Assembly (NCBI RefSeq): GCF_900116365.1
Contig: NZ_FPAG01000005.1
Coordinates: 124,001-188,000, forward strand
Length of the DNA stretch: 64,000 bases
Source of the DNA: Zhouia amylolytica
Lineage (GTDB): Bacteria; Bacteroidota; Bacteroidia; Flavobacteriales; Flavobacteriaceae
Direction of reading: 5' to 3'
A program made the position numbers and the translations under genes. Of this stretch, positions 2,903 through 26,662 are shown piece by piece (within the stretch, counting starts at the first letter, position 1; each line of letters begins with the position of its first letter). The notes below the pieces were generated by a model. That model did no database searches, had not been told where the DNA came from, and worked only from the letters and a program-made list of their open reading frames with translations.

Positions 2903-3697
2903 ATGACCAAAACACCCATAACCTACTATGGAGGTAAGTTGAATATGCTTCAACATATCCTTCCCAATATCCCTGAACATAAAATTTATACGGAGACTTT
3001 TTTTGGAGGTGGTGCAGTCTTTTTTGCAAAAGAAAAAGCAGATTCAGAAATCATAAATGATACCAATGCAATGGTCATCAATTTTTATGAAGTCTGTAAA
3101 ACTGACTTTGAAAATCTTAAAACAAAAATTGAAGCAACCATCTTTTCAAGAGCCACGTATTCAGTTGCATGGACTATATACAGAATGCCACACTTGTTTA
3201 ACAAATTACAACAAGCTTGGGCGTTTTATGTAGCTACCAATATGGGATTTGGGTGTAGGATTGGGTCTTGGGGATTTGATAAATATAGTAAACGAGTAAA
3301 AGCATTTCAGAACAAGAAATTGCAGTTTGATGGAACAATCTTCAGACGCTTATCCAATGTTCAAATTGAGCATACTAACGCTTGTAAAGTATTAGAACTT
3401 TATAATACTAATGATGCCTTCCATTATATTGACCCACCTTATATCAATTCCAATCAAGGACACTATGGTGGTTACACCGAAGCAGATTTTGAAAAGCTGT
3501 TAGATACTCTTTCCAATATCAAAGGAAAATTTCTGTTGAGTAGTTATCCCTCAAAAATTTTGGATGCTTATATCCAAAAAAATGGTTGGTACACCAAACA
3601 GTTTTCAAAACCTCTTACAGCAAAAAAAGCTATTGCTGGAAAACCTAGAGACAGTAAAAAAACAGAAGTTCTTACTGCAAACTACCCTTTAAAATAA
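2903..3697 (+). CDS. DNA adenine methylase (D12/Dam class)
   Basis: This 264-residue protein has the N-terminal signature YYGGKLNML and the AdoMet-binding segment ETFFGGGAVFF near residues 32-42. The catalytic motif DPPY sits within HYIDPPYINS near residue 175. This order is typical of class-alpha N6-adenine methyltransferases of the Dam/DpnM type. No cognate endonuclease is adjacent, so it is probably a solitary methylase used for self-protection against host restriction or for replication control of the mobile element. The target sequence cannot be read from the protein. It starts 41 bases after the radC-like gene. Confidence 0.9.
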   Translation: MTKTPITYYGGKLNMLQHILPNIPEHKIYTETFFGGGAVFFAKEKADSEIINDTNAMVINFYEVCKTDFENLKTKIEATIFSRATYSVAWTIYRMPHLFNKLQQAWAFYVATNMGFGCRIGSWGFDKYSKRVKAFQNKKLQFDGTIFRRLSNVQIEHTNACKVLELYNTNDAFHYIDPPYINSNQGHYGGYTEADFEKLLDTLSNIKGKFLLSSYPSKILDAYIQKNGWYTKQFSKPLTAKKAIAGKPRDSKKTEVLTANYPLK

Positions 3698-5516: not shown

Positions 5517-5520
5517 ATAT

Positions 5521-5550
5521 AAAAAACACTCATTAGCTTGAGTGTTTTTT
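5521..5550. terminator. Bidirectional terminator between converging genes
   Basis: AAAAAACACTCA pairs with TGAGTGTTTTTT around a short loop, giving A and T runs on both sides. It can end both the rightward block (last gene ends at 5516) and the leftward gene at 5533-5820. The stop codon of the leftward gene lies inside the hairpin. Confidence 0.85.
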
Positions 5551-5820
5551 AAAGATAAATTCAGACCATCTCGCCTTACAGCTAGTTACCGCATCATCAT
5601 ATGTTTCATATTTCCCTTTTTTACCCATGATGTCAGTAGCATAATATTCTTTTTTTGTTATGCTGGAACCTATTGTACGTAACTTTGCGTTTTTTTGACA
5701 CCAATTATTGTGATTTATAAAAGACCAACCTATGTATAGAAATGCTACTATAGAAATTATTATTAAGAGCTTTTTGGAATCTGTATCTAAAAATGGTTTT
5801 TCTTTTTTCATAGTAACCAT
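5533..5820 (-). CDS. Small membrane protein of unknown function
   Basis: This 95-residue protein has a short charged N-terminus and one clear transmembrane helix (KLLIIISIVAFLYIGWSFI, about residues 17-35). A roughly 55-residue tail with two Cys residues follows and is probably outside the cytoplasm. A start at Met4 (5811) is equally plausible. It stands alone downstream of the restriction operon and converges on the preceding rightward genes. No family is recognised. Confidence 0.6.
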   Translation of the reverse strand: MVTMKKEKPFLDTDSKKLLIIISIVAFLYIGWSFINHNNWCQKNAKLRTIGSSITKKEYYATDIMGKKGKYETYDDAVTSCKARWSEFIFKKHSS

Positions 5821-5902: not shown

Positions 5903-7378
5903 TTATTCATCTTGAATAAGATATTTATACAACTCAACCATTGCCAAAGTATCCAATTCACAATAGGATAAAAGGTTTTTTCGAACTTCTTCCTTGTCTC
6001 CATCAAAGTCATCATCTAGTACTAGTCGTCCCCAAACATCTAACGCCATAGTTCCGTTTTGAACTTCAAGTGCATCATAACTCAATTCTGGTAGAAGAAC
6101 GGGTAATACTTTTTTAATAGAGGTTGATCCGTGGAATTTATAATCTACATAATCTGTTTTAAATATGTCTTCAAGGTCAAACATATTATTATTCATGTAT
6201 GCTAGATAATTCTCGTATTGAGGAAGCATTTCTAACATATCTTTATTTCGACTCATTTCAAAACTAGCGTGCCAAGAAATAAAAGTACCCGACTTCCCTG
6301 TTGAGGCTTCCATAAATTCTATTAGTTTAGCAGGTAGTTCTAGTTCATCTGCTAAAAACTCGTAGTGTTCAATTGAGCCATCTTGTTGCATTGTATGAAT
6401 GGAAACTTGGAATGGAATATGCTGATGTGGTCTAACACCATCAATTCTAGGAATTGCACTGGCGTAGGTTTCATAATCAATAAAATGAAGTGGAAATTCT
6501 AATGAAGATAATTTATTTTCAATTTCCTTGCTATCAATGATTGGTTGGTTTTGTCTTACAGATTCGACTTGTAACCGTTGCTTATCGTTTAGTTTATAAT
6601 CACTAGGAATATCTGCAATAGCGAAAACATCTTGGTCAACAAGCTCAATGATTTTTTTTGCTGAAATTCTGCCAATTTCATAAATGCTGTATTCAGGAAT
6701 GTCTTCATTGAAATACTTAAAACTATCACAATGATTGGAGCGTGTCTTTTCTTTACATGAGCATATTTGTAAATTAATAGTTTCTTTATTTATGTAATTT
6801 ATAGCTCCATTTATCTCATTAACAACGGTTGAATAAATACTATTAACTTCCTCTGTTACATTAACCACCTCCAGTAATTGTTCTGGTTGTATTTCCCCTT
6901 GCTTTACATAATCTTTGTTAAGATGAATGATGGAAACTTGAGACACCTTATAACCATTTTCTAACATTGCATATTTTTGAAAACAAGCATCCTTTAGATG
7001 GTTATGCTTTTTGTCTTTTTTTATGCTGGTTGATGATTTTACCTCGTAAATATGCCAAGTATCGTCTTCTTTCTTTTCTAGGATATCAATACGAGCAAAA
7101 ACACCTTTTTCAGTTACAAAAGTGGCTTGAAAGAATTGTGTATTCCCTTTGTCGATTTCTTGTTTAGTTAATTCTGCCGATCCAAAATCAGGAAGTTTAA
7201 TAGCATTAGGAAATAGTTTTTGTGCATATTCTTCAACCTCATAACCTTCTTTAATCAATTTTTCTAAAAACAAAGAAAACTCACCTTTCGGAAAGTCTTC
7301 AGGTTTGTTTTTCAAAAGCCATAGAGATTCTGGGCAATTGAGATATTGAATAAAGTCTGTTTTGGTTAATTGGTGCAT
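5903..7378 (-). CDS. DUF2779 protein: Cas4-like nuclease plus DEDD-type exonuclease-like domain
   Basis: I chose the start at 7378, which gives 491 residues beginning MHQLTKTDFIQYLNCP and lies one base from the hsdR stop. A longer frame from 7462 would overlap hsdR and adds no conserved sequence. Four cysteines (about 15, 206, 208 and 217) resemble the iron-sulfur set of Cas4/AddB-type nucleases. Asp98 and the E-x-K at 112-114 form a PD-(D/E)XK core. From about residue 295 a second domain begins with HFIDYETY and ends with SYCELDTLAMVELY, resembling a DEDD 3'-5' exonuclease. It probably degrades DNA or RNA alongside the type I system. It is the last gene of the defence operon. Confidence 0.8.
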   Translation of the reverse strand: MHQLTKTDFIQYLNCPESLWLLKNKPEDFPKGEFSLFLEKLIKEGYEVEEYAQKLFPNAIKLPDFGSAELTKQEIDKGNTQFFQATFVTEKGVFARIDILEKKEDDTWHIYEVKSSTSIKKDKKHNHLKDACFQKYAMLENGYKVSQVSIIHLNKDYVKQGEIQPEQLLEVVNVTEEVNSIYSTVVNEINGAINYINKETINLQICSCKEKTRSNHCDSFKYFNEDIPEYSIYEIGRISAKKIIELVDQDVFAIADIPSDYKLNDKQRLQVESVRQNQPIIDSKEIENKLSSLEFPLHFIDYETYASAIPRIDGVRPHQHIPFQVSIHTMQQDGSIEHYEFLADELELPAKLIEFMEASTGKSGTFISWHASFEMSRNKDMLEMLPQYENYLAYMNNNMFDLEDIFKTDYVDYKFHGSTSIKKVLPVLLPELSYDALEVQNGTMALDVWGRLVLDDDFDGDKEEVRKNLLSYCELDTLAMVELYKYLIQDE

Positions 7379-7379
7379 G

Positions 7380-10300
7380 TTACGAATTATACTTCTTAAA
7401 ATTTTCAGCCTGTTCAAAGATTTCTTTATAGACCTCATCACGATCAACAGGAGGATAATCATTTTCGGCTAATAAAATGATTAAATCTACTTTTAGTTCA
7501 GCTTTTAGGTCTGCACGCTTACTCCAGTCGGCATATTTTGCCTTATCATCAACCACAGTTTTTACTGCTTTTGCAAGGTGAACCAATTTATCTTCTGGAT
7601 ATTCAAAATCGTATTTATGAGCTAATGTTTTTAAAATGTCATAAAAAGCTTTTTCTTCAAAATCAATTCCTAGATTTTTAAATGAATCTTTTTCTTTTTT
7701 AAGTTCGTAGAAAAGGTCAATAATTTCATCTGTAAAATCTTCTAAAACTTCGCTTCGAAGCACATCGCTTTCTTTTCTTTCATTGTATTTCTCAACTAAA
7801 ATTTGCATTTTTTTAGAGAAGTCAATTCCTTTTACTTTATTAACTTTTTTAAGTTCTCCAATAGCCTTTGCTAGCAATTGTTGTAGTAGTTTTATTTTAG
7901 TATTTGGTAGTTTTATTTTTTCAATTTTAGCCAAATAATCGTCATCAAATATGTCTACTTCTTTTTGATTGTCTTCACCTAGTTTAAAAATTTCCTCAAC
8001 ACCATCGCTTTGCAATGCATCTTTAATCATTTCACGGACTCTTGCATTCATTTGAGCGGTATCAGGAGCATTCCCTTTAGTTAGTTTAAAGACTATAGAA
8101 CGAATCGCTAAATAGAAATGGATATAATCTCGTTCTTCTTCTGTAAAAGCTTCTGTGCTTCCTGCACATATGTCATAAGCTGCTTTTAGACGTTTGACCA
8201 AGTCCATAAATCGTCGTTCTAATTCTTGGGTTATTTGAACGAACTCTGCTGCTTTATTTAATGTTTGAAGCTGTTCTAAGGTAGTACCTTTGAAATAAGG
8301 TTCTGAATTAAACTTATAGAAAATTTTATGTAATAAATCTAAATGGTCTTTTACTACGGTAATTGATTTTTCAATCTCTTCGATATTCTGTCCATCTATC
8401 TTTCCAAATTCGGCTAACGCCAAATTCATTTGTTTTTTAATACCAATGTAATCTACTACGAGTCCCTTATTCTTTCCAACATATTTCCTGTTAACACGAG
8501 AAATGGTTTGAATGAGATTATGACGTTGTATCGGTTTATCAATATAAATCGTATCTAAAAATGGTACATCAAAACCTGTAAGCCACATATCAACAACAAT
8601 GGCGATTTTAAAATTAGATTTTGCATTTTTAAACTGTCTATCTAATTCTTTACGATACTCTTTTGTACCTAACATATCGTAAAGTTCTTTAGGATCGTCT
8701 TTACCTCTGGTCATTATCATTTTAATACGTTCCATCGGTTTGATTTCTTTTTTCTCTTTATCTGTAAGTTCACTTCCCTCTTCGTGGGTTTTTATTTCAG
8801 CCCATTCTGGTCGTAATGCAATTACTTCTTGGTATAGGTTGTAAGCAATTTGTCGGCTACTTGCTACGAACATCGCTTTTCCTTTTACCGTAGCGCCTTC
8901 ATTAACCCTGTTTTCATAATGATTTACAAAATCTTGTGCTACTGCTTTTATGCGGTCAGGATCGCCAATGATGACATTCATTTTTGCAGTCGTCTTTTTA
9001 CTTTCTTCTATTTGGTATTCGTTAGCACCATCTTCTGCACATTGGTCATAATAAGATTCTATTTCTTTTAGTTTCTCATTTTGCAGTAAAACTTTTGCGG
9101 CTCTTCCTTCGTACACGATGCGAACCGTAATCTCATCTTTAACCGATTCTGTCATGGTATAGGCATCCACAATTTCTCCAAATACATCTAAAGTTGCATC
9201 AATTGGTGTTCCTGTAAATCCTACATAAGTAGCATTAGGTAAAGAGTCGTGTAAGTATTTAGCAAAACCATAAGACTTGGTAACTCCTTCTTTGGTTACC
9301 GTTATTTTTTGGTCTAGGTTGGTTTGGCTTCGGTGCGCTTCATCTGAAATACAAATCACATTAGTTCTGTCGGTAAGTAGCTCGGTATCTTCAGTAAACT
9401 TATGAATAGTCGTTAAAAACACACCACCACTTTGTCTACCTTGTAATAGTTTGCGTAAATGGTCTCTACTTTCAACACTAATAATATTATTGTCACCTAT
9501 ATAACCTTTAGCATTGGTAAATTGCCCTGATAGTTGGTCATCTAAATCGGTTCTATCTGTAATTAAAACGATTGTAGGACTACTAAAGTGTACGCTCTTC
9601 ATTAACAAGCGTGTTAAAAACAGCATAGTAAAACTTTTACCACATCCTGTTGCACCAAAGTAAGTACCACCCTTACCATCACCTAGTGGTTTTTGGTGTT
9701 CTTTTATATTTTCATATAGCTTGGTAGCCGCATAATATTGAGGGTAGCGACATACAATTTTTTCATCCTTTTTAGAACTGTCAGGTATATATATGAAATT
9801 GCGAATAATATTACGCAAATCCTCATGGTTAAACATACCGTGAACAAGTGTGTACATGGCATCAATACCATCTACATCTTTGTTAAGTCCAGATACTCTT
9901 CGCCATGCATAAAAGAACTCATAAGGCGCAAAAAATGATCCTGCTTTTGTATTAACTCCATCGCTAATAATACAAAAGGCATTGTACTTAAATAGTTCTG
10001 GAATATCTCGCCTGTAACGAATGGTTAATTGAACATAGGCATCATGAATTGTTGTTTCTTCTCTAATGGCACTTTTAAACTCAAAAACCACCAATGGTAA
10101 GCCATTGATGTATAGAATGCCATCAGGGATTCGTTTTTCGTAACCAATTATTTCTAACTGATTAACGAATTTGTATGTATTATTATTGGTTTCAGAATAA
10201 TCTATAAGGTAAATCCAAATATCCTTTTGAGAACGGTCTTCACGTTTAAATGAAAATCCATCAGCTACCAACTTCATAATAGACTTGTTACTTTCGTATA

Positions 10301-10523
10301 AATCTGAAGCAGAATAGGTTTTTAAACGTTTTATAATTTGGTCTGCTTCGCTTGGTGTTAGTTTTTCATTTTTATATTGAGTAAGTAGAAACGTTTTTAA
10401 GTCATCTTCAAAAATGACCTCTTGAAAATCACGAGAGATAGTGCCACCGTTAACATGAGGAATGTCTTCCGTTTTTAAAATATCTATAAATGCTTTTTCT
10501 AATTGGTATTCTGTGAATTTCAT
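7380..10523 (-). CDS. hsdR: Type I restriction enzyme, R subunit
   Basis: This 1047-residue protein has an N-terminal PD-(D/E)XK nuclease core (Pro-Asp at 133-134, then EFK at 148-150). The superfamily 2 motor follows, with Walker A GATGCGKS near residue 290 and the DEAH box ISDEAHRSQ near residue 393. Later helicase motifs include GFTGTP, VDMWLTGFDVP and QTISRVNR. It is the ATP-driven translocase and endonuclease that cuts unmethylated DNA together with HsdM and HsdS. It is separated from hsdM/hsdS by three inserted genes but shares their strand and tight spacing. All key motifs look intact. Confidence 0.95.
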   Translation of the reverse strand: MKFTEYQLEKAFIDILKTEDIPHVNGGTISRDFQEVIFEDDLKTFLLTQYKNEKLTPSEADQIIKRLKTYSASDLYESNKSIMKLVADGFSFKREDRSQKDIWIYLIDYSETNNNTYKFVNQLEIIGYEKRIPDGILYINGLPLVVFEFKSAIREETTIHDAYVQLTIRYRRDIPELFKYNAFCIISDGVNTKAGSFFAPYEFFYAWRRVSGLNKDVDGIDAMYTLVHGMFNHEDLRNIIRNFIYIPDSSKKDEKIVCRYPQYYAATKLYENIKEHQKPLGDGKGGTYFGATGCGKSFTMLFLTRLLMKSVHFSSPTIVLITDRTDLDDQLSGQFTNAKGYIGDNNIISVESRDHLRKLLQGRQSGGVFLTTIHKFTEDTELLTDRTNVICISDEAHRSQTNLDQKITVTKEGVTKSYGFAKYLHDSLPNATYVGFTGTPIDATLDVFGEIVDAYTMTESVKDEITVRIVYEGRAAKVLLQNEKLKEIESYYDQCAEDGANEYQIEESKKTTAKMNVIIGDPDRIKAVAQDFVNHYENRVNEGATVKGKAMFVASSRQIAYNLYQEVIALRPEWAEIKTHEEGSELTDKEKKEIKPMERIKMIMTRGKDDPKELYDMLGTKEYRKELDRQFKNAKSNFKIAIVVDMWLTGFDVPFLDTIYIDKPIQRHNLIQTISRVNRKYVGKNKGLVVDYIGIKKQMNLALAEFGKIDGQNIEEIEKSITVVKDHLDLLHKIFYKFNSEPYFKGTTLEQLQTLNKAAEFVQITQELERRFMDLVKRLKAAYDICAGSTEAFTEEERDYIHFYLAIRSIVFKLTKGNAPDTAQMNARVREMIKDALQSDGVEEIFKLGEDNQKEVDIFDDDYLAKIEKIKLPNTKIKLLQQLLAKAIGELKKVNKVKGIDFSKKMQILVEKYNERKESDVLRSEVLEDFTDEIIDLFYELKKEKDSFKNLGIDFEEKAFYDILKTLAHKYDFEYPEDKLVHLAKAVKTVVDDKAKYADWSKRADLKAELKVDLIILLAENDYPPVDRDEVYKEIFEQAENFKKYNS

Positions 10524-10570
10524 TTTACTCTTTTTATTTTATCATGTTTTAAATGAGAAGTAGTATTGTT

Positions 10571-11098
10571 TTATCGTCTAAGAAAATTTTCTAATTCCCA
10601 TTGCGCCAAACTCAAATTGTTTTGCTTTGCCAAAACCCTAGCATCGTTAATTATTTGCATATACATGTCTATAGTATTCAACTGCGTCCAATTAACTAAC
10701 GGTTGCTTATATATTTTTTGCTGAATAATTCTATCTACAGGAAAATGAGGTGGCTCTGGCAACAACCCTAAACACCAATAGTATTTTAAAGCTAGATTGA
10801 GCAGTTTTTGGCTAATGCCAATATTTATAGGTGCTTTGAGTACTTCTTTAAAGGATGCTGTGTAATTAGAGATACGAATAATGTTTTCTATATGATCTTC
10901 ATCTGAAACAGGCTGTTTATATTTTTTTAAAACAATTTGCTCTAGATAGCCTTTAAGCATGTTTCTAAAATAGCTACGCTCTTTTTCTTTAGTATTTGCT
11001 TTATAAATACCACTATGCTGAAACGCACCACCAAAAGTGAGCAACCAAATTTCTTCTATGAGGAAGTTTTGTTTTATATTATTTAAATTGGCTTTCAT
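10571..11098 (-). CDS. Unknown protein inside the restriction/Gabija-like operon
   Basis: This 175-residue, mostly helical protein has many aromatic residues and no recognisable catalytic motif. It begins 10 bases after the UvrD-like gene and ends 47 bases before hsdR, so it is cotranscribed with them. It has no signal peptide or membrane helix. It may be an accessory, regulatory or immunity-like component of the nested defence operon. I know of proteins of this size in type I operons but cannot name this family from sequence alone. Confidence 0.75.
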   Translation of the reverse strand: MKANLNNIKQNFLIEEIWLLTFGGAFQHSGIYKANTKEKERSYFRNMLKGYLEQIVLKKYKQPVSDEDHIENIIRISNYTASFKEVLKAPINIGISQKLLNLALKYYWCLGLLPEPPHFPVDRIIQQKIYKQPLVNWTQLNTIDMYMQIINDARVLAKQNNLSLAQWELENFLRR

Positions 11099-11108
11099 CT
11101 AACACAGT

Positions 11109-13211
11109 TTAATCAGTTAAATCAATTATTTCCCAGCCACTATTCTTATACTTTTCTACATGTTCAACTAAATTCTCTTTCAACATGGCGAAGCATAATA
11201 AATGGGTGGGTCTCGAAAAACCAACATACATCATTTTTAAAGTTTCTTTTGCTCTTGAATCCTTATTAGTTCTGTACTCATGTTCCTCATATAATAATGG
11301 GTTGGGTAAAATTATCTCTGGTTTAGTTTTAGTTGCTTTTTTTGCTATTATATTCAACTTTTCTGATTCATAATTGATATATGAGGTTTCTACATACATT
11401 GTTGCACAATGCGTCTGTCCCTTAACGGAATGCACAGTTCCTATTTCGACAGGAATCTCTTCTTTATTTAAAGGGACATCTTCTGTTAGATTAACAATAT
11501 TAACAAGTTCATTGTATTCTTCGTCTAAAAATGTTTTAACACCATCGTTTATTTCTAAATTGAACCATTCCTTAAATTCATTTTGAATGAAATTCTTGAT
11601 AGAATTGTAAGTTTGAGAAGCTTTATTAGCAACCATTATCTCAAAAGACCATTGATACAGAAGACTTTTGAAATTTTCATAGACATCATTATCAGGTTGA
11701 TTTTTAATATCCTTAATTAATTCGGATTTAGTATAATATCGTTCAATTTCTTGACCCCTAATTTTAATTTTATAGGTTTTATTCTCTAGTTTTAAAACAG
11801 CGATTAATGCATTTAAAATTGTTTTCCTAGCGGGTTCTAAGCTTGATTTATCTTTATTGAAATATTGTAAATATTTTGAAAGTGTGTCAAAAGTTTCTTT
11901 TTTACTTTTAGACTCCTTATTGTAATTGGAAAATATATTTTCCAAACGAAGCTTATCATTATTACTTCCATTGTCATCCCATTTAGCGCTCCAACCTATT
12001 ATTTTGAAACCATATTTTTCAGACTCTATCGTTTCTTCAAGTTTGTTCTCTTTTATAAGTTCTTTAAAGGTTTCTTCAAGTTTACCAATTGATTCTTTAT
12101 TAAATAAGACAAGATGCGGTTTAATGGGTTTTTGTAACTCTCTTAAACCATTAACAACAAACCTTGCATCACCATTATCGTCTTTTTGTCTGTCTAAAGT
12201 AAAGCAGTTAACTAGTTCTGATACTTCTTTGGTTAAACGTTTCGATCCATTTAAAAATCTTTGATTTCTAGGCTCCCAATCAGCATTTGTTTTTACGCTT
12301 TTACCAGAATTATAAATAGACTGGTTTATATCTCCAATTCTTTGGATTTTAGTATTTGAATTATCAGTATTAAAAATTTTTTCTATTAATTCAATTTGAA
12401 AAGACTCTAAATCTTGGGTTTCATCTATAAAAACATATCTAAATCTGTTTTGGAGTAATAGCTTAACTTCTGAATAATTATTTAAATACCAATCAGCTAA
12501 ATTGAATGAATCTCTATAGTTTAACAGCCCCTTTCGAAATAGATTTTCCTTCCAATTCTCTAGTTCAATATAATAGGGTTGATTAGGACTATCGTGTTTG
12601 AGTATTGTTCTGTTATAGTATATTAACTTCCTTTCACTAATATCGAAATAAAACCGTTTAAGAAAATCTAGTATTTTTTCTTTACCTTCTTGGAATTCAA
12701 CTCTTCTGCCAGCATTTACTAATCCAAACAATTTATTAATTAAATTTTTGGGTTCTTGACCACGCTTTGACCACTTAAGAGAGTAGAAAAAATCGTTTAC
12801 CTCAAAATTATAAAGTTCATCATCATTTTGTCTTATATAAGAACCATATTTTACTTGGCAAGCCTGATTTGCTAAAAATGTGTTCACAAATGATTGGACA
12901 GTACCAACAAAATTGGGATATTCAAAAAGACTTGGGCAATAAGATTTCAAGTTTTTTTCAATTTCTTCAACAGCTGCATTTGTATGTGAGAGAATAAGTA
13001 TTCCAGAACCATCTTTAAATGGAAGATTTTTTGAGAGACAATAAAGTTTAGCTAATAAAGCAGTTGTCTTTCCACTACCTGGTACAGCTAATAAATCACA
13101 AGTGTTAAGATCCTTGATGAAAGGTACTCGTTCCTCTAAATCAAATTCATTACCATCTATTAAAAGATTTTCAGCTTCTTTTATATGTTCATCTTTAATC
13201 TTCATGCTCAA
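11109..13211 (-). CDS. UvrD/Rep-like helicase, GajB-like component
   Basis: This 700-residue superfamily 1 helicase has Walker A AVPGSGKT at 42-49 and motif Ia ILILSHTNAAVEEIE. The DETQD box is at 263-267, followed by RIGDINQSIY. Motif V (VHSVKGQTH) and motif VI (MYVGFSRPTHLL) lie near the C-terminus. A start at Met3 (13205) is also possible. It overlaps the end of the OLD-family gene, which implies coupled translation. OLD plus UvrD is the gene pair of Gabija (GajA plus GajB), where the helicase-like partner joins the nuclease in an anti-phage complex. It is longer than the roughly 500 residues of the studied GajB, so the assignment is Gabija-like rather than certain. Confidence 0.85.
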   Translation of the reverse strand: MSMKIKDEHIKEAENLLIDGNEFDLEERVPFIKDLNTCDLLAVPGSGKTTALLAKLYCLSKNLPFKDGSGILILSHTNAAVEEIEKNLKSYCPSLFEYPNFVGTVQSFVNTFLANQACQVKYGSYIRQNDDELYNFEVNDFFYSLKWSKRGQEPKNLINKLFGLVNAGRRVEFQEGKEKILDFLKRFYFDISERKLIYYNRTILKHDSPNQPYYIELENWKENLFRKGLLNYRDSFNLADWYLNNYSEVKLLLQNRFRYVFIDETQDLESFQIELIEKIFNTDNSNTKIQRIGDINQSIYNSGKSVKTNADWEPRNQRFLNGSKRLTKEVSELVNCFTLDRQKDDNGDARFVVNGLRELQKPIKPHLVLFNKESIGKLEETFKELIKENKLEETIESEKYGFKIIGWSAKWDDNGSNNDKLRLENIFSNYNKESKSKKETFDTLSKYLQYFNKDKSSLEPARKTILNALIAVLKLENKTYKIKIRGQEIERYYTKSELIKDIKNQPDNDVYENFKSLLYQWSFEIMVANKASQTYNSIKNFIQNEFKEWFNLEINDGVKTFLDEEYNELVNIVNLTEDVPLNKEEIPVEIGTVHSVKGQTHCATMYVETSYINYESEKLNIIAKKATKTKPEIILPNPLLYEEHEYRTNKDSRAKETLKMMYVGFSRPTHLLCFAMLKENLVEHVEKYKNSGWEIIDLTD

Positions 13212-14970
13212 TTCTACAGGTGTGCCTTATTGCATCAATTAAATAACTTATGTATTCGTCGTTTTTATCTAAAACAAAATCATTAGAGCTAATCAGTTCT
13301 GCAAATTCATTAGCTACTGCTACCTTATCTAAATTTCCTTTAGCCTTTGATAATTTAGTTATTAATGTTTGTTCAAAGCCTAGATGCCAACCATCATCTT
13401 CAGAATATTTAAAGGATTTTGTTCTACTATGAACTCTACTGACAGCTTGTTTAAAGAGCTCTGAAACACTGTCAGATTTAAATAAGCACCATTCGAGAGT
13501 CCATTCTTTTGCAATATTTAAAATAAGCTTAGTATTGGCTATATCCCCTAGATTAGCCCTTATTCTAGCTTCCTTATTAGCTTGCTCTACATCATCAAAA
13601 GTCCCATCACTTTTAGGCCTGACGTCTAAATCTGTAACAATAGCCACAGGAATATTCATAATAGTATCGTCTGCGCGAAGGAATATTTTCGCAAAAGGTA
13701 AATAGGCAGTAGAGCCTACATTTACTATCGAAACCTCATACTTTGTTAAATCGTACCCGAGCTTTTTTGCTAATTCAGGAATAATTATTTCCTCTGCCCA
13801 TCCTTCTACAATAATGACACCTTTTGAAAAGAACAAATTAGATTTCGTGACATCCAAAAAACGTTTTAAGTATTTAAGGTTTTTTTCATCAAGTTTTGTC
13901 ATTCCTTTATCAAGTGAAAAGACTTTATCTTCTTTACAGATAATTAAATTCTCAATAGGTACTTTAGAAGCAAGATTAGGACTATGAGTTGTTAAAATAA
14001 ACTGAACATTTTCTGTCTCTCTTTGAATTGATTCAACAACCTTCATTTGGGCTTGTGGGTGTAAGTGAGCTTCTAATTCTTCAATGAGACAAAGCTTTAA
14101 TCCGTTCCAATCCCTTTTCAAGTGTAATAATTCAGTTGCCATAAAAAGGCGATTCATCGTTCCAAGCCCTAGGTTTTTTGAACCTTCTATACCTATAGAT
14201 ACCTTTTCTAAAATTGATTTGATATCAGGATTGGTAAGATTTAACTTTGAACCTATAGCTTCTGAAATGAAATCTTGTAAAAATTTATCAATTACATCTT
14301 TTATTTGTGCTTTATTGCTTTGTTGACCATCTTCGTGATTATCATCTTCAAACCAATCTTTGATCTGCTCATTTACTCCAGAAAACCAATTAGTAAATGG
14401 ATGAGGATTTCCCACGTCTTCTTTAAACAAGCTGTGACCTTGAAGAATTTGAGAGACTCTAGAATTTTTCTTTGCAATCAATTCTGTGTCAGCATCTCTA
14501 AGTGCCTTTAAATATGTCGTTTTAAGATAGCTCCTCGCTTCAGCGTTTAATGGGTAGCCAACATCATCCATTCCCGCTTTAATGTCAGTAGGAATTATTC
14601 GATTGTCCCTTATTTCAACCTCATAAATTAATCTTAAAACTGGGGAGGCTTTTTCACCTTCCCCTTCCCAACCTAACCATTCAATAAAATTCTTAGCCTC
14701 TTCGGATGATAATCCCTTAAAAAACAATTCAATTCTCAATTTTGATTCACCTTCAAAAAAATCTTCTTTTTCAACCTTAATCCATTCGTATGCATGGGTC
14801 TTTAGTACTAGCTTAATAGCATCTAATATCGCAGTCTTACCTGAATCATTTTCACCAATTAATACGTTTAAACCATTTTTAAAAGGCACAACTAAATGTG
14901 GAGTTTCTAAATCAAAGTCAGGTCGACCATATTTTCTAAAGTTCCATAATTTTAATGTTGATAAATGCAT
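13195..14970 (-). CDS. OLD-family ATPase/TOPRIM endonuclease, GajA-like component
   Basis: This 591-residue protein has an N-terminal ABC-type ATPase with Walker A GENDSGKT at 39-46, Walker B LCLIEELE at 293-300 and switch histidine TTHSPN at 327-332. A C-terminal TOPRIM domain follows, with Glu389 in VIIVEG and the DxD pair Asp447/Asp449 in TDLDV. This is the architecture of class 2 OLD nucleases and of GajA, which nicks DNA when nucleotide levels fall during phage infection. It is encoded directly upstream of, and overlapping, a UvrD-like helicase, as in Gabija. It lies 10 bases after hsdS. All expected catalytic residues are present. Confidence 0.88.
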   Translation of the reverse strand: MHLSTLKLWNFRKYGRPDFDLETPHLVVPFKNGLNVLIGENDSGKTAILDAIKLVLKTHAYEWIKVEKEDFFEGESKLRIELFFKGLSSEEAKNFIEWLGWEGEGEKASPVLRLIYEVEIRDNRIIPTDIKAGMDDVGYPLNAEARSYLKTTYLKALRDADTELIAKKNSRVSQILQGHSLFKEDVGNPHPFTNWFSGVNEQIKDWFEDDNHEDGQQSNKAQIKDVIDKFLQDFISEAIGSKLNLTNPDIKSILEKVSIGIEGSKNLGLGTMNRLFMATELLHLKRDWNGLKLCLIEELEAHLHPQAQMKVVESIQRETENVQFILTTHSPNLASKVPIENLIICKEDKVFSLDKGMTKLDEKNLKYLKRFLDVTKSNLFFSKGVIIVEGWAEEIIIPELAKKLGYDLTKYEVSIVNVGSTAYLPFAKIFLRADDTIMNIPVAIVTDLDVRPKSDGTFDDVEQANKEARIRANLGDIANTKLILNIAKEWTLEWCLFKSDSVSELFKQAVSRVHSRTKSFKYSEDDGWHLGFEQTLITKLSKAKGNLDKVAVANEFAELISSNDFVLDKNDEYISYLIDAIRHTCRIEHED

Positions 14971-14980
14971 ATTGTTTTTT

Positions 14981-16234
14981 CTAATTTGCTAACTCCCTTT
15001 CAACCTTATATGAGGTCATCCTAGACAGAAGTAATGATTTTATTTCGTTTAATTGCTTTGATAATTGACGATTTGAATGAATTTTATCGAGTAAAGTCAT
15101 GCCAATTTCTTGAAAAGATTCTATTATATCTGCTTGAGGGATTATAATGGGTAAGTCACTTAAATTCCCTTTGTTTAAACTACCTCGAATACTTTGACCA
15201 TCAGATTCGTTTCTTAACTCATGGTATCTTGAATAAAGATTAAAGAAAATGAAAGCTTGATATTTTTCCTCTAAAGGTCTAATACACAATACAGATTGAT
15301 TTATATAAGAATCTATTTTACAAAATGATGTTTGTCCTCTTGTTTTTCCTTGTCCAGCAGTTGCCATTATTGAGTCTCCAATCTTTGCTAACTTAGTAGA
15401 TGAATTTTTAACACCTTCTTTGGTTATCATTCTTTCAGAGTCAATAATTACTGTCTCTCTAGTTTCACCAGAGGAAAGCCAGAAAAACTCATTTCCCCAA
15501 TATGTTTCTTCATTTGTGCTAGGCGTTCCTCCACTAAAAATGTCTTTAGTAATAGTGCTTAAGACTTCTAATTTCCAACCAACAGGAATTTCCATATCTA
15601 ATTCTTCATTATAAACCATTACACCACCAGAGGATTTATAAGGTTTACCTTCTTCATTTGGGAACTCAAAATCTACAAACCAATGTTTGTATAGTGTTTG
15701 AGCTGTTTCTTCTAGTTTTTGGTTGAGTTGCTCGTTTAGTTTAATGCGATTTACTACTGTATTGTATTCTTTTACGATTTCTAGTTGTTTTTCAATGGAA
15801 GGAACTGGTAACTTCATGTTCAAAAAATCTTCCCATTCCAAACTTCCTCTTACACCACCTACGGCATGAAAGCATGCTTCTCTATCAAATTCTGAACGAG
15901 TGAACCACATCATTAAATATTCAGGTAATAATTGAGATTCATTTATAATTTGAAAAACAGGATATGCTTGTGAGATAATAGCTTCGTCAAAATCTTGTAA
16001 TAAAGCAACAGGCATTTTTTTATCACGTCTAACCTGCATAACACTACAAGCAAATTGCCCTTTCCTAATAATCTTATAGTTTTTCATATTAGTGCCAACC
16101 GTATTGGCAACAGATGGGATAAACTCTTTTGAAATGCTCAAGCCTAACAAAAGATTAATAGAAAGGTCTTTGTTACGTTCGTCAACTAACTCTATGAAAT
16201 CGCCTATTTTTCTATAATTCGATGTCATAACCAA
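14981..16234 (-). CDS. hsdS: Type I restriction-modification specificity subunit
   Basis: This 417-residue protein has the two-repeat layout of HsdS. A first target-recognition domain spans about 1-140 and ends in FLNMKLPVPSIEKQLEIV. A helical spacer spans about 140-200 (KLNEQLNQKLEETAQTLYKHWF). A second recognition domain (about 215-370) and a second helical arm end in SLLLSRM. It chooses the bipartite DNA sequence that HsdM methylates and HsdR defends. The reading frame overlaps the hsdM end by 17-23 bases depending on whether Met1 (16234) or Met3 (16228) is used. No inverted hsdS fragments are nearby, so phase variation by inversion is not indicated. Confidence 0.93.
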   Translation of the reverse strand: MVMTSNYRKIGDFIELVDERNKDLSINLLLGLSISKEFIPSVANTVGTNMKNYKIIRKGQFACSVMQVRRDKKMPVALLQDFDEAIISQAYPVFQIINESQLLPEYLMMWFTRSEFDREACFHAVGGVRGSLEWEDFLNMKLPVPSIEKQLEIVKEYNTVVNRIKLNEQLNQKLEETAQTLYKHWFVDFEFPNEEGKPYKSSGGVMVYNEELDMEIPVGWKLEVLSTITKDIFSGGTPSTNEETYWGNEFFWLSSGETRETVIIDSERMITKEGVKNSSTKLAKIGDSIMATAGQGKTRGQTSFCKIDSYINQSVLCIRPLEEKYQAFIFFNLYSRYHELRNESDGQSIRGSLNKGNLSDLPIIIPQADIIESFQEIGMTLLDKIHSNRQLSKQLNEIKSLLLSRMTSYKVERELAN

Positions 16235-17783
16235 GCTCTTTAAAAACGTTTAATAAATCCTCTTTAGATTGTGCTTCTTGTTTGAGTAAATCTGTCATTT
16301 CAGCTTGTATAGTTTTCATCTTGTCCTCAAAATTGATGTTCTCGTCTCTGTTTACAAACTCAATGTATTTACTTGGCACTAAAGAGTAGTCTTTAGCTTT
16401 TACCTCTTCAAGATTTGCAGAATAGCAATATTCAGGCACATCTTCGTAACCTGAATCCTTTTGTTGCCAGTTGTGGTAAGTTTCAGCTATTTGTTTTATA
16501 TGGTCAGGTGAGAATTGAATAAACTTTTTCTCAAAAGGTTCTCCAATTTCTCTTAAATCCATAAACAATATTTCATCTTCTCTATTCCTATAATTACGAG
16601 TGGCGTCAGGAAGTTTTACCACACGTTCTTTTTTGTTGTTATTTAAAATCCAAATTGTTACAGAAATATTGGTAGTATAAAACATGTTTTGAGGCAAAAT
16701 AACAATCGCTTCTACCAAGTTGTTTTCAATAAGTTTTTTACGTATTTTATACTCTTCACCACCACCAGAAAGCGCTCCGTTTGCCAAGATAAATCCAGCT
16801 ACACCATTTTGAGAGAGTTTAGAGACCATATTTAAAATCCACCCATAATTGGCGTTGCTTTTTGGTGGTACATCGTAACCTTTCCAACGAGGGTCATCTA
16901 GTAACTCATTATCAGCTCTCCAGTCCTTTTGGTTAAATGGTGGATTAGCCATAATAAAGTCGGCTTTTAGGTCTTTATGTTGGTCTTTGGCAAAGGTATC
17001 GGCAGGTACATCCCCTAAATTGGCTGCAATACCTCGAATAGCCAAGTTCATCTTTGCAAGTTTATAAGTAGTAGAAGTATATTCTTGTCCGTAAATAGAG
17101 ACTTCTTTTTTGTCCCCATTATGCGCTTCAATAAACTTAATGGACTGCACAAACATACCACCAGAACCACAGGCAGGATCGTAGATAATTCCTTTGTATG
17201 GTTCTATCATTTCAGCAATAAGATTTACAATACTTTTTGGTGTGTAGAATTCTCCCTTTCCTTTTCCTTCAGCTAATGCAAACTTGCTTAAAAAATACTC
17301 ATACACACGGCCAACAATATCTTGCTCCTTATCTTTAAGTGTATCAATATTATTAATGGTATCGAGTAGTGCAGACAATTTACTCACATCCATATTAAGG
17401 CGTGAAAAATAGTTATCAGGCAACGCACCTTTTAATGCGGGATTATTTTTTTCTACGGTATGTAAGGCAGTATCTATTTTTAAAGCAATATCATCTTGTT
17501 TGGCATTTTCAATAAGATAACTCCAGCGGGATGCTTCAGGTAAAAAGAAGACGTTCTTCATATTGTAGAACTCCTTCATTTCAAGATATTTTTCTTTCCC
17601 TTCTTCTATCAATTCTTGTCTGCGTTCCTCAAATTTATCGCTGGCAAACTTTAAGAAAATTAAACTTAATACTACGTGTTTGTATTCAGAAGACTCTACT
17701 GTTCCACGAAGTTTATTTGCTGAATCCCAAAGAGTTTCTTCAATGGTTTTTTGTTTTTTGGTTGTTGTTTTTCGTTTAGCCAT
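16212..17783 (-). CDS. hsdM: Type I restriction-modification DNA methylase subunit
   Basis: I start it at 17783 (MAKRKTTTKKQK), giving 523 residues. A 10-residue extension to 17813 is possible but unlikely. An HsdM_N helical domain is followed by the N6-adenine methylase core, with DPACGSGG near residue 202 (AdoMet binding) and the catalytic NPPF near residue 280. It methylates host DNA as M2S with HsdS and forms the restriction complex with HsdR. It is the first gene of the seven-gene defence operon, so its upstream gap (17784-17984) should hold the operon promoter. I could not identify one by eye. Confidence 0.95.
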   Translation of the reverse strand: MAKRKTTTKKQKTIEETLWDSANKLRGTVESSEYKHVVLSLIFLKFASDKFEERRQELIEEGKEKYLEMKEFYNMKNVFFLPEASRWSYLIENAKQDDIALKIDTALHTVEKNNPALKGALPDNYFSRLNMDVSKLSALLDTINNIDTLKDKEQDIVGRVYEYFLSKFALAEGKGKGEFYTPKSIVNLIAEMIEPYKGIIYDPACGSGGMFVQSIKFIEAHNGDKKEVSIYGQEYTSTTYKLAKMNLAIRGIAANLGDVPADTFAKDQHKDLKADFIMANPPFNQKDWRADNELLDDPRWKGYDVPPKSNANYGWILNMVSKLSQNGVAGFILANGALSGGGEEYKIRKKLIENNLVEAIVILPQNMFYTTNISVTIWILNNNKKERVVKLPDATRNYRNREDEILFMDLREIGEPFEKKFIQFSPDHIKQIAETYHNWQQKDSGYEDVPEYCYSANLEEVKAKDYSLVPSKYIEFVNRDENINFEDKMKTIQAEMTDLLKQEAQSKEDLLNVFKELGYDIEL

Positions 17784-17984
17784 AGATAGGGGTGATACTT
17801 TATATTTTACCAAATATACAGGTTTTGTCAGAGGGCATGTTTTGCCTTCTGAATATTTTTATTAATATAATTTTATAAGGAGAAAATAGCGATATAAATG
17901 TAGGAAAAATAAAAACTCCTACAAAGATAGAAGTAGATAAAATTCTCTTAAGAATAGACTTGTTAAAAATATAATCTTTGCTCT

Positions 17985-18417: not shown

Positions 18418-18453
18418 AAAAAGGTTCGGTAAAACATATTACCGAACCTTTTT
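18418..18453 (-). terminator. Strong rho-independent-type terminator
   Basis: A long perfect stem (AAAAAGGTTCGGTAA against TTACCGAACCTTTTT) with a short loop ends in a T run on both strands. It follows the stop of the leftward three-gene set ending at 18476 and separates it from the gene at 17985-18359. Confidence 0.9.
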
Positions 18454-23629: not shown

Positions 23630-26600
23630 ATGAATGCTAGCGAACAAGCAACACTTAACTTCTATCAATGGGAGTATCGTCATCGTGGTTACTACCATTT
23701 TGACACCCCTGTTGATATAGAGGTTCCATATATTCCCTTTCGTCATAAAACGTATCAGCATGAATCCATAGAAGATGATGGACGTGCTCCATCACTCTTT
23801 AAACAAATAACTAAATTACTTACTCCATCTAAAGAAAAAGAAGAATCAACCGAAGAAGTAGCAGAAATAGAACCTCGATTTTTAGCTTTCGATAGTAAGC
23901 CGAATCTTGTCGGAGTTTCATTCTCATTTCCAAAAGGAACCGAAATACCGTCTAATAGAAATATTGAATTTCTTAATATGCTGTCGTTTACGGAGAACCT
24001 ACTTTCATTTGAAATAATTGGAACTTCAGAGAGTATTACTATCCAGTTTGTTTGTAGTGAATATGATAAAGGAAGAGTAACATCGCATTTACAAGCCTAT
24101 TTTCCAACCGCAATTATTCGTGCAATAGAAATAGATGATTTTGGTTTTGATTCTGAAAATGATATTGCAATTGCAGATTTTGGTTTGAATGATGAATACA
24201 TGAGAAGTATTGCAACTACTAATTCATTTATCATAGACCCATTAACTTCTGTTGTTGCAATAATGGAATCACTACAACAAAATGATATTGTAGTATTTCA
24301 AATACTGTTTAAAGGAATTGCCTCTCCGCTCGCAAAAGATATAACCTATTCGGTTTCTGATGGTGTTGGCGGTTCATTCTTTGCCGATGCTCCTGAAATG
24401 CCAAATTGTGCGAAAGATAAAATTACAAACCCATTGTTTTCGGTGGTTATGCGAATTGCTACCCAAGGAGAAAATAATATTAGAAGTCAGTATCTAGCAC
24501 AAGAATTGGCACGAAGTATTTCAGCTATTTCAACTTCGGAATATAACAAGCTAATTCCATTATCTAATGAAGGATATGATTATAATTTTCACAAATATAA
24601 TCTGCACCATCGATTAAGTAATAGGTTGGGATTTGTATTGAATTCCAAAGAGCTTAATACTTTTCTTCATTATCCAAACAAAACAATAGTCTCCAAAAAA
24701 CTTGGATTACAAGGTGGGAAAACAAAACAAGTTCCGACAACTATTACCAATCAAAAATATCTACTTGGTATAAACGAACATAATGGAGTAGAAAGTAAAG
24801 TAATGTTGAATGACGAAATGCGCTTACGTCATAAACACATAATCGGAGCAACAGGAGTTGGTAAAAGTACATTGATTACTAACATGATGATTGAAGATAT
24901 GAATACAGGAAATGGCTGTGCTTTGTTTGACCCACATGGAGATATTGTAGAAGATGTTTTACTTCGTATTCCACAACATCGTAAAAATGATGTTATTGTA
25001 ATTGATCCATCTGATACGAACTACTCTATCGGGTTTAATTTATTGGGGGCAACAACTGATTCAGAAAAAATAGTTTTGAGTTCAGATTTAGTGTCATCCT
25101 TCAAACGTCACGCAACAGCATGGGGCGATAATATGTCCGCAGTTCTCTCCAACGCTATTAATACTTTTTTAGAAAGCAGTAGAGATGGAACACTCATTGA
25201 GTTAAAACGTTTTTTATTAGAAGATTCATTTAGAAAAGAGTTTTTAACTTCGGTTCAAGACCCATCTATTCATTATTACTGGAATAATGAATATGCGATG
25301 GTAAGTAAAAGAATTGCTCCATTACTAACGAGAATAGATACCTTTTTACGTCCTAAAGTTATCCGATATATGTTGGCTCAAACTGGAGGTGTTGATTTCA
25401 AAAAATGTATTGAAGAAAAAAAGATTGTTTTAATCAAGCTTTCACAAGGTTTAATAGGTGAAGAGAATAGCTTTTTATTAGGTTCAATTTTCCTTTCAAA
25501 ATTTAACCAAGTAGCACAAGGACGACAATCATTACCAAAGCATCAGCGTCATCCTTATTACATATATCTTGATGAATTTCAGAATTTTATAACGCCAAGT
25601 ATTACTAGGATACTTTCTGGCGCAAGAAAATATGGTCTAGGATTAGTGTTGGCACATCAAGAATTAGGACAAATTGATGATGCTAAAATTCTGAATTCTG
25701 TTATTTCAAATCCGTACACACGAATATGTTTTAGGTTGGGAGATTCTGATGCAAAACGACTGGAGTCTGGGTTTTCCTATTTTGAACAATCAGATTTACA
25801 AAGTTTAGGAATTGGACAAGCCATTATGCGAGTTGGTTCTTCAAATGATGATTTTAATATTTCAACATTTCCATTACCTAAAGCTGAAATTGATGCAGAA
25901 ATAAATCGGAAAATTATTCTTACCAATACGAGAAATAGTTATGCAAAACCCAAAGTAGAACTTGATAAACTCTTAATATCATTATTACCGAAGCGAACTC
26001 AATTTAAAAAAGAACCTAAAGAGAAAGTAATTCTTAAAAAACAGGAGGAAGTTATTGAGATTATTGACTCAAAAGAAGAAGTAGAGGTTATTGAAGATAC
26101 AGAAGAAACTATAGAAAATAATCATATTTCTGACACTCAAAGAGAACAACTGGTAAAGGAAGAAAACGAATCTTTAGAAGTTAGAGCCCATACCTATCTA
26201 CAATCAATCATTAAAAAACTGGGACAAGATCGAAACTATAAAGCCACCAAAGAATATCCTACAAAAGATGGTGGGCGTATCGATATGGTATTAGAAAAAA
26301 ATGGTTTGAAAATAGCATTTGAGATATCGGAAACCAATAAACCTGCTTACGAAGTTAAGAACATTAAAAAATGTTTAAAAGCAGGGTGTATTCCAGTTGT
26401 AATGGTTTCAAAAAGTAAACATCACTTAATGAGTGTTAAGAAACTGGCAGATAAAGAGTTAAGTGATAAGGACAAGGAGTTAATACAGTATTTACAGCCT
26501 GATGAAATACCAAACTTCCTTGACCAATTTATTCTTGAACCTAGTAGAAAAGAAGAAGTAGTTAAAGGGTACAGAATAGTAACTGAATTTGATGACGTAG

Positions 26601-26662
26601 AGAGTACTAAAATTAAGAATCTTAAATCACGAATTGCAAGAGTATTTAAGCGAAAAAAATAA
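23630..26662 (+). CDS. Conjugation-type DNA translocase with C-terminal nuclease-like domain
   Basis: This 1010-residue protein has an N-terminal region of about 380 residues with alternating strands. A TraD/HerA-type motor follows, with Walker A GATGVGKS near residues 406-413, then LFDPHGD, and Walker B YIYLDEFQ near residue 648. A charged linker spans about 790-860. The tail (about 865-985) has GRIDMVLEKNGLKIAFEIS, an Asp followed by a Glu-x-Ser on hydrophobic strands as in PD-(D/E)XK-like folds. It probably pumps DNA during conjugative transfer or processes it for defence. A shorter paralogue lies at 1209. It precedes the serine recombinase by 63 bases. Confidence 0.8.
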   Translation: MNASEQATLNFYQWEYRHRGYYHFDTPVDIEVPYIPFRHKTYQHESIEDDGRAPSLFKQITKLLTPSKEKEESTEEVAEIEPRFLAFDSKPNLVGVSFSFPKGTEIPSNRNIEFLNMLSFTENLLSFEIIGTSESITIQFVCSEYDKGRVTSHLQAYFPTAIIRAIEIDDFGFDSENDIAIADFGLNDEYMRSIATTNSFIIDPLTSVVAIMESLQQNDIVVFQILFKGIASPLAKDITYSVSDGVGGSFFADAPEMPNCAKDKITNPLFSVVMRIATQGENNIRSQYLAQELARSISAISTSEYNKLIPLSNEGYDYNFHKYNLHHRLSNRLGFVLNSKELNTFLHYPNKTIVSKKLGLQGGKTKQVPTTITNQKYLLGINEHNGVESKVMLNDEMRLRHKHIIGATGVGKSTLITNMMIEDMNTGNGCALFDPHGDIVEDVLLRIPQHRKNDVIVIDPSDTNYSIGFNLLGATTDSEKIVLSSDLVSSFKRHATAWGDNMSAVLSNAINTFLESSRDGTLIELKRFLLEDSFRKEFLTSVQDPSIHYYWNNEYAMVSKRIAPLLTRIDTFLRPKVIRYMLAQTGGVDFKKCIEEKKIVLIKLSQGLIGEENSFLLGSIFLSKFNQVAQGRQSLPKHQRHPYYIYLDEFQNFITPSITRILSGARKYGLGLVLAHQELGQIDDAKILNSVISNPYTRICFRLGDSDAKRLESGFSYFEQSDLQSLGIGQAIMRVGSSNDDFNISTFPLPKAEIDAEINRKIILTNTRNSYAKPKVELDKLLISLLPKRTQFKKEPKEKVILKKQEEVIEIIDSKEEVEVIEDTEETIENNHISDTQREQLVKEENESLEVRAHTYLQSIIKKLGQDRNYKATKEYPTKDGGRIDMVLEKNGLKIAFEISETNKPAYEVKNIKKCLKAGCIPVVMVSKSKHHLMSVKKLADKELSDKDKELIQYLQPDEIPNFLDQFILEPSRKEEVVKGYRIVTEFDDVESTKIKNLKSRIARVFKRKK

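Follow-up and report, generated by a model that had tools for sequence, protein, structure and literature searches.

Does a Gabija defence system found inside a type I restriction-modification operon belong to that operon as a partner, or does it occupy a place that unrelated modules can take as well? The question is raised by a 64,000-nucleotide stretch of the Zhouia amylolytica genome (assembly GCF_900116365.1, contig NZ_FPAG01000005.1, positions 124,001 to 188,000; hereafter the window), in which seven tightly packed genes are encoded on the minus strand in the order hsdM-hsdS-gajA-gajB-X-hsdR-DUF2779. An earlier note, made from the sequence alone, had recognised an OLD-family ATPase/TOPRIM protein and a UvrD-like helicase encoded between hsdS and hsdR, a gene of no recognised family behind the pair (here X) and a DUF2779 gene behind hsdR; all of these were found again at approximately the coordinates it gave. 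The locus is probably an intact-looking type I operon with an exchangeable cargo bay at the hsdS-hsdR junction, the cargo in this case being Gabija and the small gene X. The features are as follows, in window coordinates, with lengths in base pairs (bp) or amino acids (aa).

18418..18453, minus strand: terminator-like hairpin upstream of the operon
16212..17813, minus strand: hsdM, type I DNA methyltransferase subunit (N6_Mtase 351 bits, HsdM_N 84 bits, PADLOC MTase_I 498 bits)
14981..16234, minus strand: hsdS, specificity subunit (Methylase_S 69 bits in two stretches; Specificity_I 207 bits)
10524..14980, minus strand: hsdS-hsdR slot, the putative cargo bay, 4457 bp (from comparison with 28 other operons of the same HsdR family)
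13195..14970, minus strand: gajA, ABC-type ATPase with OLD-like TOPRIM nuclease domain, cargo (PDLC00080 711 bits)
11109..13211, minus strand: gajB, UvrD-like helicase of 700 aa, cargo (PDLC00124 739 bits; predicted structure)
10571..11098, minus strand: X, protein of 175 aa, no family match
7380..10523, minus strand: hsdR, type I restriction subunit (HSDR_N, SWI2_SNF2, T1RH-like_C; PADLOC REase_I 1274 bits)
5903..7462, minus strand: DUF2779 gene downstream of hsdR, start uncertain (DUF2779 120 bits; RNase_H_2 25 bits; Cas4 33 bits)
5520..5551, minus strand: terminator-like hairpin downstream of the operon

As expected of a type I system, HsdM, HsdS and HsdR are encoded with their characteristic domains in a single operon. 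Relatives of the window HsdR were detected in 19 of 395 genomes of the class (E-value 1e-150, the window's own genome included), 16 of them at an identity of at least 60%, and additionally in 6 of 87, 3 of 64 and 3 of 70 genomes of overlapping sets and on plasmids. Two hsdR fragments at contig edges (G002, G006) are not among the compared loci, which are numbered with the prefix L. Comparison of these operons found hsdM, hsdS and hsdR retained and the modules in the bay differing, many of the latter matching known defence genes. The slot is loaded, with at least 590 bp, in 25 of the 29 operons of the window HsdR family that have both hsdS and hsdR in view, and nearly empty in L128, L133, L138 (Klebsiella) and L137 (E. 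coli); L128 and L137 have a short or split hsdS, and the close plasmid relatives L139 and L142 were counted separately. This count excludes L127, which gave no HsdS hit, and the distant L114–L117 (HsdR 33–41%), among which L114 and L117 are empty, L115 holds two cargo open reading frames (ORFs) and L116 one. The cargo comprises an AAA_13 protein in L102 (PDC-S06 888 bits, with a weaker PrrC match of 54 bits), PDC-S06 in L131, OLD and GmrSD_N in L103, a PDDEXK_4 protein (homologue in L104), RelA/SpoT and an AriA-like ATPase in L105, SIR2-HerA in L106, AbiEii in L110, HATPase and Tmn in L111, a ThsA-like SIR2-STALD protein in L112, and a CBASS-type cyclase with a 4TM effector in L141; cargo proteins of 541 aa (L109) and 286 aa (L118) gave no family match. 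L113 and L135 carry Gabija, so that with the window two distant Gabija clades appear in this slot. The window itself conforms, with defence genes of another kind in the junction and on the hsd strand.

Plain clustering, by which the genes would stand together merely since defence islands accumulate such genes, would suit the resemblance of the window to a mobile island, with TraG/VirD4-like ATPases and a serine recombinase nearby. It is nevertheless improbable given how narrowly the insertions are placed: they fall at one junction, all non-hsd ORFs of at least 80 aa inside the first set of operons lie on the hsd strand (47 of 47; L119, without hsdM, was omitted), and the cargo edges lie near the hsdS stop and the hsdR start; for 19 of 24 loaded operons, the last ORF stops no more than 40 bp ahead of hsdR or runs up to 26 bp into it.

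Some further features of these operons were recorded. The GmrSD-like cargo that precedes hsdR in L017 and L103 has a relative in L132 (17162–18967, hsdR on the plus strand) that follows hsdR; cargo may thus shift between operon positions. L107, L108, L110 and L136 encode related proteins of 182–209 aa after hsdS, that of L108 matching an IS200-like Y1 transposase (28 bits). A small protein common to L104, L107 and L110 is encoded between hsdM and hsdS; a relative of it in L108, a PDDEXK_3 protein, is encoded in the hsdS-hsdR slot.

Gabija combines a nuclease, GajA, with a DNA-end-sensing helicase, GajB. The assignment of the window pair to this system is supported by the PADLOC models (711 bits for GajA, 739 bits for GajB) and by the domain content of GajA, i.e. 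AAA_15 and an OLD-like TOPRIM domain. Residues K45, E297, E298, H329, E389, D447 and D449, which we take to be the conserved ATPase and TOPRIM residues, are invariant across seven aligned GajA sequences. No NCBIfam model for GajA or GajB reached its cut-off, the best for GajA being PtuA with 80 of 500 bits. A profile of seven GajA relatives aligns with the solved B. cereus GajA over profile positions 1–531 of 611 (63 bits), albeit the OLD-family structure 6p74 scores higher in the same search (82 bits), and a phmmer comparison of window GajA with 8sm3_A gave a weak match (E 7e-6). GajB, encoded directly after gajA, has a UvrD-helicase domain, and its predicted model (mean predicted local distance difference test score, pLDDT, 86.5) is nearest to PcrA/UvrD (1qhg, Z 22.9, root-mean-square deviation (rmsd) 3.9, 425 aligned). 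The predicted fold also matches solved GajB among other UvrD-like helicases (8sm3_B, Z 16.4, rmsd 7.8, 335 aligned; 8tjy_B, Z 16.3, rmsd 2.5, 204 aligned, 25% identity). Relative to the Gabija of B. cereus VD045 (e.g. 8sm3), the window thus shares the adjacent ATPase-TOPRIM nuclease and UvrD-like helicase, but differs in the low sequence similarity to the solved proteins, in a GajB that fits PcrA/UvrD better than solved GajB, and in its location inside an hsd operon. The window GajB is indeed long, 700 aa compared with about 493 in 8sm3_B, as had been remarked earlier; the distinct subtype proposed on that ground was rejected, as six aligned relatives measure 617–735 aa and the best PADLOC GajB model 738 aa.

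By their sequences, the cargo module and the hsd genes have different histories. The DNA of L106 and L107 is 90% identical in hsdM, 95% over the whole of hsdS and 92% in hsdR, yet L106 carries 3.3 kilobases (kb) of SIR2-HerA and L107 0.6 kb of unrelated cargo, the similarity being lost 12 bp after hsdS ends and recovered 5 bp ahead of hsdR. As nearly the same hsdS accompanies unrelated cargo, no HsdS-specific partnership is indicated. Moreover, a scan of 84,980 genomes gave 508 confirmed GajA relatives, the best 80 of which were used, and the GajA closest to that of the window (66%) is that of L022. The two are joined with a Shimodaira–Hasegawa-like approximate likelihood ratio (SH-aLRT) support of 94 in a 90-row tree, whereas approximately unbiased (AU) tests reject a clade of window and L022 for HsdR (p=0.0007) and HsdM (p=3e-6). 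L102 groups with L119, L109 and L105 by HsdR but with L112 and L113 by HsdM, a discordance that fits the pattern expected of recombination within the operon.

A GajB match was found in 79 of the best 80 GajA loci, 55 of which extend for 4 kb or more to either side. As hsd genes were sought here with profiles built for this analysis, distant type I families may have escaped notice. Three of the 80 have Gabija nested between hsdS and hsdR, namely L022 (Prolixibacteraceae), L061 (Methanoculleus) and L063 (a Deltaproteobacteria record), and in L043, L056, L059 and L090 it lies beside hsd genes. Two further nested systems of another, distant clade were reached via hsdR (L113 and L135; 57 and 43 bits to the window GajA). 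The search for the same nesting that the earlier note had called for therefore shows that it is not restricted to this strain; with five recurrences, chance does not explain the gene order, and chance adjacency in one strain was rejected. The next-nearest relatives, L023–L030, showed no hsd gene in the examined DNA with the same profiles. In the GajA tree, which is without the B. cereus reference, other tested Gabija and L135, the five nested rows (window, L022, L061, L063, L113) require four state changes with the other 85 scored as not nested; compared with the four hsd-adjacent rows alone, three changes are required, two of them forced by well-supported branches. L113 forms a very long branch in this tree. 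A pattern and tblastn search of viral contigs found no Gabija; two phage records each cover less than 80% of GajA.

Two observations on the GajA loci stand apart. Genes for Eco57I-like or type ISP-like adenine methylases lie upstream of gajA in L071 (5171–8347) and L087 (7102–8469), directly adjacent in both, in L085 (2605–5925) at about 0.2 kb, and in L064 (4921–6798) at some kb. In the Psychrobacter loci L036 and L037, gajB is in pieces and gajA in a single frame.

The earlier note had suggested that HsdS/HsdM methylation marks DNA which the GajA nuclease then avoids, or that the systems are physically linked; all seven genes would then form one co-evolved system. Tight spacing, a probable single transcript and the recurrence of the nesting would agree with such a system. 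We nonetheless regard it as very improbable, considering that the same hsdS occurs with different cargo, that hsd genes and Gabija differ in history, that close Gabija relatives (L023–L030) have no hsd genes in view, and that X and the DUF2779 gene were not found with Gabija elsewhere: X is present in none of the best 80 GajA loci, and the DUF2779 gene in none of the loci scanned.

Another model, possible if rather unlikely, ties Gabija and the other ATPases of the slot to the type I enzyme as guardians, which would fire when a phage anti-restriction protein blocks the enzyme, as PrrC does in EcoprrI. The PrrC-matching AAA_13 protein (L102), the AriA-like ATPase (L105), OLD (L103) and Gabija do share one slot. 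That slot equally holds AbiE, ThsA, CBASS and SIR2-HerA genes, for which we know of no guardian-type role, and with just three of the best 80 GajA loci nested, Gabija is not obligately linked to a type I operon. From the literature, the model draws on the response of both PARIS and Gabija to the T7 anti-restriction protein Ocr, as described in the cited section of PMC12255303, and on the term restriction guardians given to PrrC and PARIS in that of PMC12707154.

How modules reach the slot is suggested by pieces of hsdR found within it. A total of 2845 tiles, cut across the hsdM, hsdS and hsdR genes of 30 operons, were compared with 179 kb of sequence from the hsdS-hsdR and hsdM-hsdS regions and from downstream (E 1e-5), and the only recurring piece apart from two hsdS 3′ ends was the hsdR 5′ end, with seven copies in six of 30 operons (L022, L108, L110, L111 twice, L113, L141). 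All seven copies, referred to as scars, lie in the hsdS-hsdR slot in direct orientation, begin at the hsdR start codon (hsdR offset 0–142) and are located at cargo boundaries, with lengths of about 26 to 133 bp. The other matches at this threshold were two hsdS 3′ ends shortly past the hsdS stop (L111, L141). Relaxing it to 1e-4 for the first 15 operons added weak single matches of internal hsdS (L103, L111) and internal hsdR (L109), which are taken as chance; a weak match of the L112 hsdR start lies inside its own hsdM (63%, E 4e-4). The first 120 bp of hsdR gave no match in 319 kb of flanks at E 1e-5. Among ten operons of other HsdR lineages a scar was found in L063 only, as a copy, 47 bp long, of the start of its own hsdR (81%, E 1e-8), which sets in within the final bases of hsdS, ahead of gajA; a weak start-aligned match in L061 (69% over 52 bp, E 6e-4) was not counted. 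Six plasmid and seven E. coli operons showed none.

Scar lengths were judged by eye in the alignments; on these lengths, five of seven scars resemble the hsdR of another operon more than their own, some by small margins (76 vs 72% in L108). L135, with gajAB directly before hsdR, matches the state expected before the insertion that would have left the L113 scar after gajB, and L107 and L136 likewise match the expected pre-insertion state for L108 and L110. The case for the scars is carried by their common start point, orientation and place. In the route of exchange that we infer, incoming DNA would consist of a module joined to an hsdR 5′ end and would recombine through hsdR homology; an imprecise left join would leave a piece of the old hsdR start as a scar, so that the most recent arrival would be the module next to hsdR. 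Gabija itself would work by its own known mechanism, borrow the expression of the operon and complement restriction against phages that evade the type I enzyme or inhibit it. Tentatively, and with a probability falling somewhat short of even, this can be extended to a reading of the hsdS-hsdR junction of type I operons as a directional, cumulative cassette site. Each new module would enter at the hsdR 5′ end together with a donor hsdR start and with hsdR as its homology arm, the displaced old start would stay as a scar, the order from hsdS to hsdR would be the order of arrival, and scars could provide a left arm for later modules. The Gabija of the window would be one passenger of this site.

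Alternatively, the scars could derive from hsdR as short functional reading frames or as elements of translational coupling, and not mark insertions. Their beginning at the hsdR start codon and the annotation of one as a 56-aa protein would be in line with this explanation, which their wide range of lengths, the decay of similarity and the lack of a scar in 24 of 30 operons at the threshold used render improbable. The annotated case is that of L141 (7170–7337, Chryseobacterium plasmid NZ_CP041688.1), a hypothetical protein located between a DUF4062 gene and the CBASS-type cyclase/effector pair. In L113, two similar genes of the 23S rRNA-intervening-sequence family follow the scar in the slot (8789–9160 and 10798–11166; the first matched in Pfam, the second by similarity to the first), and similar DNA directly follows the scar of L110.

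Several observations count against the exchangeable cargo bay and its proposed mode of exchange. The window's own slot gave no scar in the tile search, and the window is accordingly not filed as a scarred member. Across the other HsdR lineages a scar is present in only one of 16 operons. For L154, two tiles from inside hsdR gave matches in the DNA downstream (E 2e-6 and 6e-6); such values can thus mislead in AT-rich DNA, which makes the 26–32-bp scars of L022, L110 and L113 weak one by one. The L022 scar ties with its own hsdR and that of L141 is closest to its own, so that local duplication is possible in both. The L134 slot holds three opposite-strand ORFs. In the E. coli branch (hsdR of about 61% protein identity) the slot is empty in all seven intact loci fetched (L143–L149), with a hsdS-hsdR gap of 94 bp throughout, five of the loci lying between yjiA and symE and two elsewhere; an eighth record contains a broken hsdR piece only. 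By guanine-cytosine content the cargo does not stand out as foreign (gajA 33.2%, gajB 29.1%, hsd genes 32.5–34.7%). Regarding the separate histories, the AU tests were performed once quick trees had already been inspected, and a joint GajA and GajB tree gives the shortest path between the window and L022 without resolving them as sisters. As to its extent, the E. coli branch of the HsdR family was recorded in 855 of 5426 complete E. coli genomes at no less than 80% of the query.

Defence genes embedded in other defence loci are said to be a general phenomenon, according to the guilt-by-embedding survey of Payne et al. 2024 (bioRxiv 10.1101/2024.01.29.577857). A close parallel is the RptR-RMS-DarTG-M48 island of E. 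coli, in which DarTG2 lies between hsdS and hsdR of a type I operon, a site that the authors suggest as a potential recombination hotspot (PMC12255303, cited section). Like the window, this island has an unrelated defence module at the hsdS-hsdR junction; it differs in its toxin-antitoxin cargo and a dedicated repressor, RptR, and the cited section mentions no scars (PMC12255303). In C. jejuni, RloF lies between hsdR and hsdS, and in V. cholerae TgvAB takes a similar position in the type I operon of VPI-2, as given in an excerpt of PMC11411939; both are likewise defence genes embedded in type I operons, and combined protection is reported there for the V. cholerae cluster. Their cargo is GmrSD-like (PMC11411939). 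Among the loci compared here, a GmrSD_N protein belongs to the cargo of L103, not of the window. PrrC, embedded in the type I locus EcoprrI (PMC12707154, in part), and the Rlo genes in a type I locus of Campylobacter, with an hsdR C-terminal relic beside rloC (PMC2610378, in part), also resemble the window as accessory defence genes within a type I locus. The type I enzyme keeps PrrC inactive, a link that would apply to the window Gabija only under the guardian model. Embedding in type I operons is thus already published for PrrC, RloF, TgvAB and DarTG2, and we have not seen start-anchored hsdR scars described; a literature search that was not in depth returned no account of these, nor of Gabija in the hsdS-hsdR slot.

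Turning to the window operon itself, the gaps of −23 to +47 bases noted earlier are correct: hsdM and hsdS overlap by 23 bp, hsdS and gajA are 10 bp apart, gajA and gajB overlap by 17 bp, and gaps of 10 bp and 47 bp separate gajB from X and X from hsdR. The DUF2779 frame adds an 83-bp overlap with the hsdR end if begun at its first ATG. For hsdM, the TTG at 17813 is the listed start and the ATG at 17783 the likelier one. Transcription of all seven genes as one unit, also proposed earlier, is likely from this spacing and from the four terminator-like hairpins on the minus strand, of which one lies upstream of the operon, one downstream and two within genes; none falls in any intergenic gap of the operon. 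As both strands together gave eight hairpins compared with 5.5 in shuffles, single hairpins are weak evidence, and promoter-like matches (73, compared with 59.9, standard deviation 7.7) do not greatly exceed shuffles and say little. The Zhouia amylolytica genome has one hsdR of the window kind and, for the GajA ATPase family, a single strong match.

X has no match in Pfam, NCBIfam, PADLOC or PDB, and its single-sequence structure model (mean pLDDT 40.5) is uninformative. Relatives occur in five other genomes (3 of 395 genomes including the window's own, and 4 of 241, one already among these), and none was found among the plasmids or viral contigs searched. Two lie at type I operons, just before hsdR in L017 and after hsdR in L018, and the other three elsewhere. 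X was rejected as a Gabija component on its absence from the best 80 GajA loci, and is probably a small separate cargo gene that travels independently. The Cas4-like similarity of the DUF2779 protein (33 bits) concerns its N-terminal half. In summary, the earlier interpretation stands as to Gabija, its nesting and the likely single transcript, and not as to the HsdS/HsdM link, the helicase subtype and the membership of X and DUF2779 in one system.

The surroundings of the operon, at 1209–28276, contain two TraG/VirD4-like ATPases (1209–2375 and 23630–26662), RadC (2394–2861), a D12 adenine methylase (2903–3697) and a large serine recombinase (26726–28276).

The speed with which bacteria swap defence systems calls for an explanation, and the restriction operon described here resembles a standing dock for such exchange. 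The Gabija of the window is better treated as an exchangeable passenger of this dock than as the partner of one particular HsdS. Start-anchored hsdR scars would make both the route and the order of arrival of modules readable from sequence alone and, if they hold in a wide survey, would provide a simple computational marker for new defence modules as well as a testable recombination mechanism.

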